From: a bacterium
GTDB lineage: Bacteria > Oederibacteriota > PGYV01
DNA: 61,031 nucleotides
Assembly: GCA_029565735.1 (NCBI GenBank)
Contig: JAKQNO010000066.1
Span: 1 to 61,031, forward strand
Direction: 5' to 3'
Every line of letters starts with the position of its first letter. Positions within the stretch are counted from its first letter, which is position 1. Under the pieces are notes generated by a model that did no database searches, was not told the DNA's origin, and saw nothing but the letters and a program-made list of their open reading frames with translations. The position numbers were made by a program, and so were the translations under genes. Positions 4,404 to 11,850 of this stretch are shown piece by piece.

Positions 4404-4452
4404 TTGATATTGAATCTCAATAGCATTATACAAAATATCCGCCGTTTGTCAA
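4404..4452 (-). promoter_or_regulatory. fur promoter with autoregulatory dyad
   Basis: TTGACA (4452-4447) and TATAAT (4430-4425) match consensus with a 16-bp spacer. Immediately downstream, 4404-4420 holds a 17-bp dyad of 8-1-8 layout with one mismatch, whose core TGATATTGAATCTCA resembles the Fur consensus. It lies at the expected start of transcription, suggesting autorepression. Confidence 0.7.
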
Positions 4453-4553
4453 TAAAGTTTTATTGTTATATTATATGAATAAGTTTAACAAGTTCAACTT
4501 ATCCGGCACCTTCTATAAACGGAACAAAACACTGATTTCCACACAATTAATTG

Positions 4554-4587
4554 CCCTGTCTGCCGCATAAAAAGCCGGCAGACAGGG
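4554..4587. repeat. 12-bp perfect inverted repeat (hairpin)
   Basis: Arms CCCTGTCTGCCG (4554-4565) and CGGCAGACAGGG (4576-4587) enclose a 10-nt loop. It could fold on either strand, but no clear T-tract follows on the minus strand, so terminator function for ispH is uncertain. The rest of 4453-4677 is AT-rich with nothing recognised. Confidence 0.6.
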
Positions 4588-4677
4588 GGTGGGGGTGGCA
4601 GGAACCCTTTTCAATATATTTTTAAAAGTTACACTAATAATAAATATTGATAGTTATCTATTTTTCTTCACTTATAG

Positions 4678-5640
4678 CTACCTTTTAATAATTTGTACAA
4701 AATAATTTCGTACAGACGCACTAACAAACTTTAGATTCATTCTATTAAGTTTTAAAAACTTCCTGTTTTTATTAAACTCCATATTTTTCAAATACAAATT
4801 GACTTTTTTTATCTTTCTTTCAACATCAATAGTGATATGATTAGGCGTGGAGGCTCCGGCGGTAATTCCAACCCTTTTAACACCTACAAACCAGTTCAAA
4901 TCAACATCATCAGATTTTGATACTATGTATGATTTAATATTATTTTTTTCACATATCCGGTTTAGCTTGTTTGTGTTATTTGATTTTTTGCCGCCAACAA
5001 TAATTACAATATCACACGACCTACAAAGGCGCTTTAAAGCATCCTGCCGTTTTCTGGTAGCCGGACAAATCGTATCTGCAAATTTAATAATCGCGCCGCG
5101 GTTTTTATCTCTTATTCTTTCAACAATACTTTCAACGGATTCAGCGTCAGAAGTTGTCTGACATACAATCCCTATATATTTTTCATCATAAAATTTGACA
5201 TCTTCAATTTTTTCAACTATAGAATAGCGGTTTTCAGCAAGATCTTCAGCCACCCCTATCACTTCAACATGGTCTTTTTTTCCTATTATCACAATATACC
5301 TTCCGGCGCGTTTTAAAAGCATAGCCGTTTCATGCAGTTTTTTCACAAGAGGACAAGTGGCATCAATCAAATTAAGTCCATAAGATTCAACGATTGCCTT
5401 TCTTTTCAGGCTGATTCCATGCGCCGGTATAAGCAAATTCCCGGTCGTACAAAATATAGGCTCCGACAATTCCTTGATAAAATAAAATCCCTTTCTTTTA
5501 AGCTGTTCCGTAATATCATCATTATGAGCCAATTCCCCATACACAGTAACATCATAGGGAATTGTAATTTTATCAGCAATTCCAATAGCTGCTTTAACAC
5601 CATCACACATTCCCATTGTATCCGCTTTTATAATTTCCAT
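4678..5640 (-). CDS. ispH: 4-Hydroxy-3-methylbut-2-enyl diphosphate reductase
   Basis: Last enzyme of the MEP pathway; it reduces HMBPP to IPP and DMAPP with a [4Fe-4S] cluster. Cluster cysteines are C12 (GMCDGV), C96 (DATCP) and C192 (DTICPATRKRQ). H39, H74, H124 and E126 match the substrate-binding and catalytic positions of the E. coli enzyme, and GITAGASTP is present. It has 320 residues, with about 40 basic C-terminal residues beyond the core. Codons are AT-richer than in most of the window, as in the two genes upstream. It lies 59 bp after a CmpB-HD gene in what looks like a TetR-controlled operon, an unusual setting for a housekeeping gene; it may be a second copy. Confidence 0.94.
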   Translation of the reverse strand: MEIIKADTMGMCDGVKAAIGIADKITIPYDVTVYGELAHNDDITEQLKRKGFYFIKELSEPIFCTTGNLLIPAHGISLKRKAIVESYGLNLIDATCPLVKKLHETAMLLKRAGRYIVIIGKKDHVEVIGVAEDLAENRYSIVEKIEDVKFYDEKYIGIVCQTTSDAESVESIVERIRDKNRGAIIKFADTICPATRKRQDALKRLCRSCDIVIIVGGKKSNNTNKLNRICEKNNIKSYIVSKSDDVDLNWFVGVKRVGITAGASTPNHITIDVERKIKKVNLYLKNMEFNKNRKFLKLNRMNLKFVSASVRNYFVQIIKR

Positions 5641-5699
5641 ACTTCACCCCCATTTCTTTATCAGTATTTATTTTCATATACGGTATTGCACAGCCTTAT

Positions 5700-6722
5700 T
5701 CAAATTATTCTGCCGATAAGAACAGTAATTTTACCCATGATAAATTTTACCGGCCTGACCGAAAGAATATAGTCTTTTGCTCCACAATACGTATCGGATA
5801 TAGCTACAATCAACGACTCCGCGTGAAAAGGCGGTATCACTGTAAGTGGCCACATATGCTTTTTTATGATATCTTCTTCTTTTTGCGAAAGGCTGTAAAA
5901 CTTTTTAGCATTTCGTAAAGCAATATATGGATGTACAAATGCATGCCAGCGCGGCGCTTCCTCGGGATTCATCCAATCATAGTAAAACAGGTCATGTAAT
6001 AAAGCTCCCCTGACTACCGCTGAAATATCAAGTTTAAACCGCTTAGCTGTCACAAAACTTAACCATGCCACCTCCATCACATGGTCAAACCTGCTTGTAT
6101 TCCTGTGATGAGCTATTTCCCTAAGTCTTAGTATTTGCGGATTACTTATAATGTTCCTGGCAATTTCAGCGAATTCTCTTTCCATATCAGCTTTATATTC
6201 GGGATTAACTTTTGTTATATTCCGGAAAAGAACTATTATGAAATCAACAGACATAAAAGAAATTATGATAAAAGAAAAAATAGTTTTAATATCCAAAGGT
6301 AACGAAACTAAAAATATAGTGAACCTGTCAAACATAAGATAATCAAAGAGAAATACACTTAACATCCAAAAAAGTGAAAATTTTAAGCAAACAATGCCAT
6401 TGTAATTGAATTTTTCACCTGAGTAATCCCACAACTTGACATTGAATGCTTTCAGCAGTATTAATCCGGCAGCATATTCTGTTATTGTGGTGATCCCCAA
6501 ATAACTTACGGCCTTTATGAATATATTGAAATGCTGAATCTGACCGATAAGGAAAATACCCATTAACGCGCCGGTCCCATATACTGGAAGATATGGACCC
6601 ATTAAAAAGCCCCGGTTTACCATTCTTTTGTTTTGAACAGAGTCATACAACACTTCCACTATCCAGCCTATAATTGAAAATATACAAAACATAAAAGTTA
6701 AATCATATAAACTATTTGACAT
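5700..6722 (-). CDS. CmpB-type membrane domain fused to an HD hydrolase domain
   Basis: About 340 residues. The first about 160 residues are hydrophobic with 4-5 helices and resemble the putative ABC-transporter type IV (CmpB, PF06541) family: IGWIVEVLYDSV, NRGFLMGPYLPVYG. The C-terminal half is an HD-type metal-dependent phosphohydrolase: HHRNTSRFDHVMEVAW, LLHDLFYYDW and a later SDTYCG. The HD part would face the cytoplasm. Start ATG at 6722 has AAGGAG upstream and overlaps the preceding gene by 11 bp. The substrate is unknown; position before ispH invites a link to isoprenoid phosphates or nucleotides, which is speculation. Confidence 0.72.
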   Translation of the reverse strand: MSNSLYDLTFMFCIFSIIGWIVEVLYDSVQNKRMVNRGFLMGPYLPVYGTGALMGIFLIGQIQHFNIFIKAVSYLGITTITEYAAGLILLKAFNVKLWDYSGEKFNYNGIVCLKFSLFWMLSVFLFDYLMFDRFTIFLVSLPLDIKTIFSFIIISFMSVDFIIVLFRNITKVNPEYKADMEREFAEIARNIISNPQILRLREIAHHRNTSRFDHVMEVAWLSFVTAKRFKLDISAVVRGALLHDLFYYDWMNPEEAPRWHAFVHPYIALRNAKKFYSLSQKEEDIIKKHMWPLTVIPPFHAESLIVAISDTYCGAKDYILSVRPVKFIMGKITVLIGRII

Positions 6723-7380
6723 ATTCCTCATCTCCTTCACTGTTAATTTTCAGGATTTCAGGTTTTGGCCTGGAAATTTCATATATGAGTTCGTTTAACA
6801 GCAGCCCGCCTAATAAACCGGTAATTCCTCCGGCTGCGGCACTGTATCCACCCTCAGTTGTTCCAAAACATTTGTATCCAGCCACTGCACCCGCCGCGGT
6901 AAAAGAAGCCGGAATCAACAAAGCAACCGCAAGATTATCACGCTGCCATCTTTGCCTCCTTTCATTCATACTGCTTATGTATTCTGAACAAATTGCTTCG
7001 TTACAACCGCCGCCTTCAATTAACTCGGTTGTTTTATAGCCTAAAACTATTCCTGCTATTGTCAGTCCTGAAAATAACAGAATGTCGCCCAAAAACCGAT
7101 TCAATTCATCATTTACGTTTACCAAATCACTAATATAGTTTTCTCCGACGGAGAAATCATAATTCGGCACAATTAATTTAAACGAAACCGCGCTACCTAC
7201 CAAAGTTCCAAGCATCATACCAGTCATTCTGAAGGAATTAATTTTTTCACATTTTTCACAATTACCATTTTCATCTATGTCATATAGATAAGGCATTGCA
7301 TATATTGTGTTGATATTGATACAGACTAAAAAAACCAGCGCGGCTTTTTCTGTAATTCTAACCAATACATTTTCATCCAT
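6712..7380 (-). CDS. Unrecognised membrane protein, first gene of the TetR-controlled operon
   Basis: 222 residues. A signal-like hydrophobic segment (about 8-29) is followed by a short CEKC motif and three or four glycine-rich hydrophobic segments (around 52-70, 98-116, 150-168 and 180-198). These resemble glycine-zipper membrane segments more than a transporter fold. No family is recognised. The TetR-type operator lies 49-75 bp upstream of the start, and the 3' end overlaps the CmpB-HD gene. Composition is AT-rich like its operon partners. Confidence 0.7.
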   Translation of the reverse strand: MDENVLVRITEKAALVFLVCININTIYAMPYLYDIDENGNCEKCEKINSFRMTGMMLGTLVGSAVSFKLIVPNYDFSVGENYISDLVNVNDELNRFLGDILLFSGLTIAGIVLGYKTTELIEGGGCNEAICSEYISSMNERRQRWQRDNLAVALLIPASFTAAGAVAGYKCFGTTEGGYSAAAGGITGLLGGLLLNELIYEISRPKPEILKINSEGDEEYVK

Positions 7381-7428
7381 AATAACCGCCGTCCCTTTTC
7401 TATTTTATTAAAACCCGTGTTATTACTT

Positions 7429-7460
7429 TTTGAACATTTTTATCTTTTGTTCAAATTATA
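7429..7460 (-). promoter_or_regulatory. TetR-type operator with -10 element, upstream of the ispH operon
   Basis: TTTGAACA (7429-7436) and TGTTCAAA (7448-7455) form a 27-bp dyad. A TATAAT (7460-7455 on the minus strand) abuts it. The layout, -10 box running directly into TTTGAACA with the same total length, repeats that at the tetR promoter (8061-8092), so the same repressor should bind both. No good -35 is visible. Confidence 0.7.
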
Positions 7461-7472
7461 TGCAAAAAAAAA

Positions 7473-8045
7473 CTACCTCTTCTTCATTCCATCAATTAAC
7501 AATCTTACAATTACATCCAGATTCTTTTCAAGTAATAAAATATTTTTTTCAGTTACCCAGGAATACTCCAACCCTTTAATAAAAAAAATCAGTCCGTCAA
7601 GAGTCAAATCAACATTTTTTATATCAAAGTAATTACTGTTGTTGCCTTTTTCAAGTATTTCTTTAAGTAGTTTCCGCTCTTCCTTATCAAGAGCAATCCT
7701 GACTTTCTGGAGTTTTTCCCGTTCAATAAAAAACTTATCAATAAGCACTGAATAATAATTGGACAATTCATTAAGGCATTTGGCACGCGTAATAATAAAA
7801 ACTTTTAATTTTTCATCCGGCATTTCAGCCTTATCAACATTTTGTCTCATCGTGGAAATAAGGGTTGTTCCTTCTTTTTCAATTATCGCGCGGAACAGGT
7901 CTTCTTTATCTTTAAAATAGTAATATATATAACCTTTTGCTTTATTAATTTTCTTGGCAATATCTTCTATAGTAGCTTTTTTAAAGCCATATTTTACAAA
8001 TATTTCTGCCGCCGATTCAATTATGTCTTTCTTTGTTTGTTCCAT
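7473..8045 (-). CDS. TetR-family transcriptional regulator
   Basis: 190 residues. The N-terminal HTH is clear (KATIEDIAKKINKAKGYIYYYFKDKEDLF); the C-terminal ligand domain is helical and not assignable. ATG at 8045 has GGAG 8 nt upstream; codons before it lie inside the operator. A perfect operator overlaps its own promoter, and a second site of the same geometry stands before the next operon on the same strand, so it probably represses itself and the membrane/CmpB-HD/ispH genes. The ligand is unknown. Confidence 0.9.
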   Translation of the reverse strand: MEQTKKDIIESAAEIFVKYGFKKATIEDIAKKINKAKGYIYYYFKDKEDLFRAIIEKEGTTLISTMRQNVDKAEMPDEKLKVFIITRAKCLNELSNYYSVLIDKFFIEREKLQKVRIALDKEERKLLKEILEKGNNSNYFDIKNVDLTLDGLIFFIKGLEYSWVTEKNILLLEKNLDVIVRLLIDGMKKR

Positions 8046-8060
8046 TTTCAAATCTCCACT

Positions 8061-8115
8061 TTTGAACAAATCGCTTATTTGTTCAAAATATACCATACGA
8101 TTAAATTCTTGTCAA
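8061..8115 (-). promoter_or_regulatory. tetR promoter and 27-bp operator
   Basis: TTGACA (8115-8110) and TATATT (8092-8087) have a 17-bp spacer. A perfect inverted repeat, TTTGAACAAAT (8061-8071) and ATTTGTTCAAA (8077-8087) with a 5-bp centre, starts at the -10 and covers the transcription start. Confidence 0.85.
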
Positions 8116-8129
8116 TTTTTTATTTCTTT

Positions 8130-10025: not shown

Positions 10026-10415
10026 TTAATTTTTTATTACAGCTAATACTAACCTGACGGTACAATACAGGACAATAATCCAGATTATGCCGATTATTAC
10101 TGCCGCGGCCATGCCGGCTTTTGTGTTTATTTTATTTTTACCGGCTCTAGCCAGGCTTTCTTTAAGAACCGGTTTTGGTATCATTTTCATCACGGCATAA
10201 ATACATGCCGGCAATATTATTACGTCATCAAGATATCCCAGCACCGGTATAAAATCCGGTATCAAATCAACCGGGGATAAAGCATAAGCGACGGTAAGAA
10301 TTCCAAACACGCGCGCGTACCACGGCGTCCTTGGATCCTTAATGGCAAAATAAAGCGCTGAAACGTATAATTTTAACCGTTTCAGTCTGCGTTTTATTGA
10401 AAACTTCTTTTTCAT
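10026..10415 (-). CDS. YkvA-like (DUF1232) membrane protein
   Basis: About 129 residues. The signature DUF1232 stretch [20 protein letters not shown] is intact, preceded by a basic N-terminus ([15 protein letters not shown]) and followed by a C-terminal hydrophobic helix. Function of the family is not established. ATG at 10415 follows the CDF stop by 19 bp. Confidence 0.85.
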
Positions 10416-10434
10416 AAATTTTCCGTTCAGCGCT

Positions 10435-11382
10435 TTAATCGTCCGCGTGTGTCGAACCGTCATACGGTTCCACATGCACAGTGGTGTTGCAGACTTTGAA
10501 TAATTCCTTCATTTTATGTTCTATTTTAAGCGTCAGCCCGTGCGATTCATCAACAGTCATCTGGCCGTCAACTTCAATATGCATGTCTATGAAAATCGTG
10601 GAACCGGACTGCCTTGTCCTTATCCTGTGGAAATTTTTAATCTGTCTGAATTCCTTTAAAGCGCTTTCAATTTTTTTGATTTCATTATCTTCAAGCCCTT
10701 TGTCTATTATCTGGTGAGTGAGCGTGTAAGAAAGCCTTAAAAAGATGCCCAAAACCCAGACACCCACAAATATGGCTGCCACAGGGTCTATCCACCATTT
10801 TTTTGTGATACTCAGCACGATAAGGGCCAGCGCTATGCCCAGCGAGGTGATGACATCGGCGCGCAGATGCTCTCCGTCCACTTCTATCCCGACCGACCTT
10901 AACTGCTTTCCTTTTTTTATAAGAAACTGTGAAACAAAAAAATTGATGATTCCGGACACGATCATGACCGCGATGCCTATTTCCACCATCTGCGGCTCTG
11001 ACTTATGAATGAATTTTTTTACTCCTTCATAAATAATTCCGGCGCCGACCAGAAAAATAAGGACATTTTCAATCCATCCGGTTATAATTTCAATCTTTCC
11101 GTGGCCGTACGGGTGTTCTTTATCCGCGGGTTTTAACGACTGCTTTACGCCTATATAAGCGACAACGGACGCCAAAAGGTCATTTGCGGAATGAAGCGCC
11201 TCCGCCACTATGGAAACAAGCCCTGTCATCCATCCGACTATCAGTTTGGCTATTACAAGGAACAAATTAGAGCCGATGGATAGAAGTATTATCCTTTCTT
11301 TTTCTTTTTTATGTTCTGATTCAATACTGTTTTTTTCCATATCAGCCACAATATCATCTGCATGTTCTTCTGTGTTTTTCAT
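10435..11382 (-). CDS. Cation diffusion facilitator metal exporter
   Basis: Inner-membrane metal/proton antiporter, 315 residues. Six hydrophobic helices carry the metal site on helix 2 (EALHSANDLLAS) and helix 5 (HLRADVITSLG). The C-terminal cytoplasmic dimerisation domain follows, ending with IDMHIEVDG and HVEPYD. It lies 20 bp after an ArsR/CadC-type sensor with thiol ligands, pointing to Zn, Cd or Co efflux. It also begins the downstream YkvA/membrane/MFS run. Confidence 0.93.
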   Translation of the reverse strand: MKNTEEHADDIVADMEKNSIESEHKKEKERIILLSIGSNLFLVIAKLIVGWMTGLVSIVAEALHSANDLLASVVAYIGVKQSLKPADKEHPYGHGKIEIITGWIENVLIFLVGAGIIYEGVKKFIHKSEPQMVEIGIAVMIVSGIINFFVSQFLIKKGKQLRSVGIEVDGEHLRADVITSLGIALALIVLSITKKWWIDPVAAIFVGVWVLGIFLRLSYTLTHQIIDKGLEDNEIKKIESALKEFRQIKNFHRIRTRQSGSTIFIDMHIEVDGQMTVDESHGLTLKIEHKMKELFKVCNTTVHVEPYDGSTHADD

Positions 11383-11402
11383 CCCGTTTACCCCGCAATT
11401 TT

Positions 11403-11759
11403 TTACTTTCTTAAAGCATTTGCTAAAAGGCCCCTTATATAACTGTTATTAAGGGAATAATAAACCATATTACCTTCATTTTTTCGCGTTACTATTTTTA
11501 AATCCCGCAGTTTTCTCAGCTGATGTGATGCCGCGGAAATTGTAAGCCCTAGTATGTTGGATATATCGCATACGCAAAGCCTCTCTTCCAGAGAAAGCGC
11601 GAATACTATTTTTGCCCTTGTCTTATTGCCAAGTGCTGAAAAAATCACTATTATGCCCTTTATAACAGAGTCTGAAGGCATAATTTTTTTTAGTTTTGTT
11701 ACCTTTTTTTTGTCAATACTGCATACATCGCATGTGTCTTTTAAACGGTTTTTTTTCAT
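11403..11759 (-). CDS. ArsR/SmtB-family metal sensor, CadC-like
   Basis: About 118 residues, a winged-helix repressor released from DNA by metal. The recognition-helix metal motif reads RLCVCDI, matching the ELCVCDL signature of CadC-type (alpha3N) sensors, and an N-terminal TCDVC supplies the partner thiols. ATG at 11759 is preferred to a GTG at 11771 that lacks a ribosome-binding site. The promoter contains a 40-bp perfect dyad, so autorepression and control of the CDF operon are expected. Confidence 0.92.
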   Translation of the reverse strand: MKKNRLKDTCDVCSIDKKKVTKLKKIMPSDSVIKGIIVIFSALGNKTRAKIVFALSLEERLCVCDISNILGLTISAASHQLRKLRDLKIVTRKNEGNMVYYSLNNSYIRGLLANALRK

Positions 11760-11774
11760 TTTTCCAGTCACACT

Positions 11775-11836
11775 TTAATATTCTATTTGAACGATTGTTC
11801 AAATAGAATATTAACATTTTTATTATTATCAGTCAA
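11775..11836 (-). promoter_or_regulatory. ArsR operon promoter with 40-bp perfect dyad
   Basis: TTGACT (11836-11831) and TAATAT (11813-11808) are 17 bp apart. Positions 11775-11792 and 11797-11814 are perfect inverted copies (18-bp arms, 4-bp centre), with TTTGAAC/GTTCAAA at the inner ends. The dyad starts at the -10, as expected for ArsR/SmtB repression. Confidence 0.85.
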
Positions 11837-11850
11837 TACTGCTTTAGGTA

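Follow-up and report, generated by a model that had tools for sequence, protein, structure and literature searches.

Four genes fill positions 4678-8096 of the minus strand in a 61,031-nt stretch of bacterial DNA (the window, meaning the whole stretch analysed) and run in the order tetR, membrane protein gene, CmpB-HD gene, ispH. They are read here, with a probability of roughly 45%, as a horizontally gained, TetR-repressed operon that would combine a second HMBPP reductase (IspH2) with two membrane proteins in a membrane-lipid response. The gene positions proposed in a first-pass annotation of this DNA were reproduced by open reading frames, and the TetR, CmpB-HD and IspH assignments by Pfam and NCBIfam scans (Table 1).

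Table 1. Features of the inserted block and its edges (window coordinates).
Feature	Position	Strand	Basis or remark
Block absent from both congeneric genomes, inserted between fur and an MFS gene	4464-8108	.	blastn; GC and GC3 shift
Left 8-bp direct repeat, TTGTCAAT	4446-4453	+	Read from sequence; holds the fur -35
Right 8-bp direct repeat, TTGTCAAT	8109-8116	+	Read from sequence; holds the tetR -35
ispH2, second HMBPP reductase-like gene	4678-5640	-	TIGR00216 over cut-off; alignment to solved IspH; tree
CmpB-HD fusion, 346 aa	5700-6740, likely start near 6722	-	Pfam
Membrane protein gene, 222 aa, about five hydrophobic stretches	6712-7380	-	No family match
tetR, TetR_N helix-turn-helix regulator	ORF 7473-8096; likely 7473-8045	-	Pfam TetR_N
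Candidate operator 1, TTTGAACA-N11-TGTTCAAA, 27 bp	8061-8087	-	Overlaps last base of tetR -10 box
Candidate operator 2, TTTGAACA-N11-TGTTCAAA, 27 bp	7429-7455	-	Overlaps last base of TATAAT
tetR promoter, TTGACA-17-TATATT	8087-8115	-	11 of 12 consensus positions

The membrane protein and CmpB-HD genes overlap, and ispH2 follows 59 bases further on behind a clear ribosome site, a spacing that points to one three-gene transcription unit. The regulator matches TetR_N at 51.6 bits against a cut-off of 24 (Pfam). Since its listed ORF start lies upstream of operator 1, the true start is probably the MEQTKK near 8045, which was chosen for its position behind the operator and a ribosome site. No relative of the membrane protein turned up in Pfam or NCBIfam, among plasmids or in the loci compared. 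It had been described as a glycine-rich membrane protein; the membrane assignment stands, and the glycine enrichment is only mild (10.4% Gly).

Palindromic sites overlie both tetR's own promoter (TTGACA at 8115-8110, TATATT at 8092-8087) and the promoter of the target operon, and both dyads begin at the final T of a -10 box. Before the membrane protein gene, a TATAAT at 7460-7455 was read from the sequence, and no good -35 box was found for the promoter at operator 2. The dyad pattern occurs twice in the window, against an expectation of zero from 100 shuffles of the window, and the whole 2.47-Mb genome holds two matches, both in the block, with none for a reversed-pattern control. An origin of the operators as chance dyads is ruled out by these shuffles and by the genome-wide scan, which returned only the two matches. 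No comparable dyad was found before related tetR genes elsewhere. The placement is that of a classic repressor site over a start point, where TetR would be expected to bind. Two claims of the first-pass annotation are thereby supported: that two 27-bp operators of the same geometry run out of -10 boxes, both now located and genome-unique, and that a dedicated TetR accompanies them, in keeping with the TetR_N match.

Two congeneric genomes (G001 and G002) have an empty site in which fur is joined to the MFS gene and the block is cleanly missing. In blastn alignments, window position 4463 meets L165:5890 and 8109 meets L165:5907, leaving 16 bases between, while 4452 and 8127 meet L166:7525 and L166:7517 with an overlap of a few bases. 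These empty sites rule out descent of the block from an ancestral gene set of the genus. The GC content is 34.6% in the block versus 43.4% in the remaining window sequence, and the block's genes have a GC3 of 29-36% versus 43-54% in most neighbours, confirming an earlier remark that the region is AT-richer than its surroundings. The same remark took this richness as a hint of transfer; with empty sites in two congeners beside the shifted composition, the block was most likely gained by horizontal transfer. The paired TTGTCAAT copies at its edges resemble a duplication made on insertion, and the empty site of G001 has a single copy. Neither a transposase nor a terminal inverted repeat was seen at the block. 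The repeat supplies an identical -35 to fur and tetR. Both congeners also lack another block of the window (10136-11850), which encodes a cation efflux CDF protein, a small protein and an ArsR-type regulator; in them its flanks are joined within about 100 bases.

IspH2 scores 256.7 bits against LYTB (Pfam) and 253.4 bits against TIGR00216 (NCBIfam, cut-off 187.85). Aligned with the solved A. aeolicus and E. coli IspH and with relatives, it keeps all cluster cysteines and all substrate and active-site residues, as had been claimed for its catalytic residues. The suggestion that it is an ispH paralogue was also correct: the same genome carries a further ispH that scores higher, flanked by an S1-like gene and plsC and close to aroA and rex, in the aroA-plsC-ispH-S1-rex setting that is usual for the housekeeping gene. 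The detoxification role suggested with it is conjecture, and the gene's direct tie to HMBPP is its enzyme family. This better-scoring copy in its canonical setting rules out IspH2 as the sole housekeeping ispH. Almost all genomes of the window's phylum carry just one ispH, the housekeeping gene.

In a tree of 38 IspH proteins, IspH2 falls within a nine-row clade (support 100/98) that stands apart from the housekeeping IspH of the window's own phylum. The other members are second copies in four genomes and sole copies in four more. An intact squalene/phytoene synthase-like gene comes after the sole copies of G049 and G336, an argument for IPP/DMAPP production by the clade; G197, another sole-copy genome, has a broken-looking remnant of such a gene. 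Together, the kept residues and the sole-copy members favour true HMBPP reductase activity for IspH2. Its long branch (1.78 changes per column; best identity 39%) leaves room for a change of substrate.

Second ispH genes of this clade recur in regulated, membrane-linked settings. In three genomes (G030, G036 and G309), as in the window, a second IspH of the clade is clustered with a regulator and a small membrane protein; the genes before the enzyme there encode a regulator of HTH_34 type and a membrane protein of 200 aa. These units are homologous to one another but differ from the window's in regulator family and membrane protein, both of which are unrelated, and they have no CmpB-HD. In G204, a B12-binding radical SAM gene (L138 7029-9505) comes after the second IspH; elsewhere, CmpB-HD is fused to an enzyme of this type.

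The CmpB-HD protein matches ABC_trans_CmpB (PF06541) at 132.6 bits (cut-off 25.9) and HD (PF01966) at 20.4 bits, just below the 22-bit cut-off; the HD domain of its relative L074 scores 22.8 bits. The metal ligands H220, H249, D250 and D316 (H...HD...D) are invariant in 24 aligned homologues. The protein comprises an N-terminal membrane CmpB domain and a C-terminal HD hydrolase (AlphaFold2 pLDDT 87), and a fold search returned weak, generic HD matches such as dNTPase, PgpH and YhaM.

Relatives of CmpB-HD were drawn from a scan of named genomes, and the best 80 of 372 were analysed. In 42 of the 75 loci among them with at least 1 kb downstream, the next gene encodes two BadF/BcrA ATPase domains and DUF2229 in a product of about 1,400-1,540 aa where complete; a tetR-type gene directly precedes CmpB-HD in 20 of the 72 with enough upstream sequence. 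An HD-domain tree gives the window's protein (SH-aLRT 99) a sister clade of 51 rows, and in 44 of these CmpB-HD directly precedes a gene with two PF01869 domains and DUF2229. This is the architecture of PlsA, the plasmalogen synthase, with two activation and two reduction domains (PMC12838417), and of its homologue Ger, a glycerol ester reductase with two PF01869 domains that was validated in Desulfatibacillum (PMC11150832, PMC13274423); PlsA and Ger are inseparable by sequence alone (PMC13274423). In three further members of the sister clade, the place of the PlsA/Ger-like gene is taken by a B12-binding radical SAM domain fused to CmpB-HD itself. These fusions, from deltaproteobacterial genomes and with tetR upstream, lie at L072:6995-9115, L073:7034-9442 and L074:6947-9346. 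The CmpB-HD and PlsA/Ger-like genes at L059, L060 and L085 have a patatin-like phospholipase gene immediately or a short way ahead of them.

In the window, the slot after CmpB-HD, which holds a PlsA/Ger-like gene in most of the sister clade, is taken by IspH2. The operon has no PlsA/Ger-like gene (two PF01869 plus DUF2229), and none of the best 80 of 372 relatives has ispH beside CmpB-HD. The one DUF2229 gene of the window's genome is unlinked, on contig C27, and its product is 23% identical to that of G020, a genome of the same phylum. There, CmpB, HD and a PlsA/Ger-like gene follow one another, and a TetR of 40% identity lies 6 kb upstream. The G020 row (L125 496-12939, one strand) encodes TetR, an MMPL-like transporter, lipoprotein-sorting-like, outer-membrane-like and branched-chain aminotransferase-like proteins, CmpB, HD and the PlsA/Ger-like protein, and could be one lipid operon. 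A Collinsella replicon (L042 3940-12957) holds dxs, HD, CmpB, TetR-like and BadF-domain 2-hydroxyacyl-CoA dehydratase-like genes within 9 kb; its dxs-HD-CmpB run was set aside as an isoprenoid link, as the nearby TetR-like and BadF-domain genes fit the PlsA/Ger pattern.

PlsA/PlsR and Ger loci thus resemble the window in having a TetR-type regulator directly upstream, as in the CmpB-HD loci of Desulfobacterota and in E. faecalis pls, where the upstream gene is TetR/AcrR-like (PMC9702350), in having CmpB-HD as next-door partner and in ending on an oxygen-sensitive [4Fe-4S] enzyme. They differ in that their last gene is of the PF01869/DUF2229 type, whereas the window ends in IspH and has an extra membrane protein. 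The best 80 of 372 CmpB-HD loci and a sample of 384 genomes from across bacteria contained no other instance of the exact four-gene set, and the unit is so far unique. A search for this neighbourhood in other genomes, proposed in the first-pass annotation, thus found the whole only on this contig, an outcome that the annotation had named as refuting its reading, but both halves recur: TetR with CmpB-HD, and a regulator with a membrane protein and a second IspH.

In the favoured reading, TetR would sit on both operators, at the start sites of tetR and of the operon, and repress them until a ligand, perhaps hydrophobic or lipid-like, releases it. The membrane protein, the CmpB-HD hydrolase and IspH2 would then be made together. 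IspH2 would raise or protect the last MEP step, from HMBPP to IPP/DMAPP, and CmpB-HD would act at the membrane on a phosphorylated substrate, both presumably in the service of membrane lipids. Since its clade includes sole housekeeping copies, IspH2 would most likely act as an isozyme of HMBPP reductase that is induced as part of a membrane-lipid response. For CmpB-HD, the best-supported role, judged from gene context, would be that of a membrane hydrolase drawn from an ether-lipid gene neighbourhood. Counting against the favoured reading are the long IspH2 branch, the absence of ispH from the best 80 of 372 CmpB-HD loci, the want of a good -35 box at operator 2 and the precedent of M. tuberculosis LytB1. 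Like IspH2, LytB1 is a second IspH with intact residues beside a working one; according to PMC4550268, it keeps all critical residues yet cannot replace LytB2. The abstract mentions no TetR/CmpB-HD setting of the kind found in the window.

The LytB1 precedent (PMC4550268) and the long branch are also what recommend the view that IspH2 has changed function. In the PlsA/Ger-type slot it would serve as a [4Fe-4S] reductive dehydroxylase for a different allylic alcohol, phosphorylated or lipid, with CmpB-HD as a common membrane partner of such low-potential lipid enzymes. The usual occupants of that slot, PlsA/Ger-like proteins (44 of 51) or the fused B12-binding radical SAM domain (three), are iron-sulphur enzymes by family, which agrees with this view. 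It is nevertheless considered unlikely: IspH2 retains every pyrophosphate-binding and catalytic residue of IspH, members of its clade serve as the only IspH of other genomes, and of the loci examined just one has an IspH after CmpB-HD. A bolder version of the idea makes CmpB-HD a general membrane partner of lipid-reducing iron-sulphur enzymes (PlsA/Ger, B12 radical SAM) and IspH a recruit to a new lipid or polyprenol reductive dehydroxylation under a lipid-sensing TetR; this is speculative and improbable.

Nor does an inducible stress isozyme seem likely. TetR-family regulators often sense hydrophobic drugs, and the window's TetR might respond to an antimicrobial or redox-active compound, with IspH2 replacing a housekeeping IspH damaged by oxygen or metals and CmpB-HD being incidental. 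IspH is oxygen sensitive (PMC8837944), and the block did insert between fur and an MFS gene. However, these two flanking genes are host backbone in the congeners, and the inserted block contains no efflux pump or detoxifying enzyme. CmpB-HD is also hard to call incidental because its pairing with an upstream tetR recurs. That recurrence, and that of the other half of the set, weigh likewise against a chance pile-up of unrelated acquired genes behind a TetR, with IspH2 as a neutral passenger. Although the exact four-gene set has been seen once, the overlapping or closely spaced genes share a candidate operator and were inserted as one low-GC block, and a pile-up is judged quite improbable.

With a second ispH that was probably acquired by transfer and put under a repressor, one can ask in a natural setting why cells would turn the final MEP step on and off, and the operon might serve as a switch by which membrane lipids are adjusted. 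Beyond the window, the arrangement of TetR, CmpB-HD and PlsA or Ger recurs across Desulfobacterota and in one genome of the window's phylum (G020), and a literature search found no mention of CmpB-HD proteins together with plasmalogens. Given this recurrence, anaerobic ether-lipid synthesis may involve an accessory factor that has so far been overlooked.
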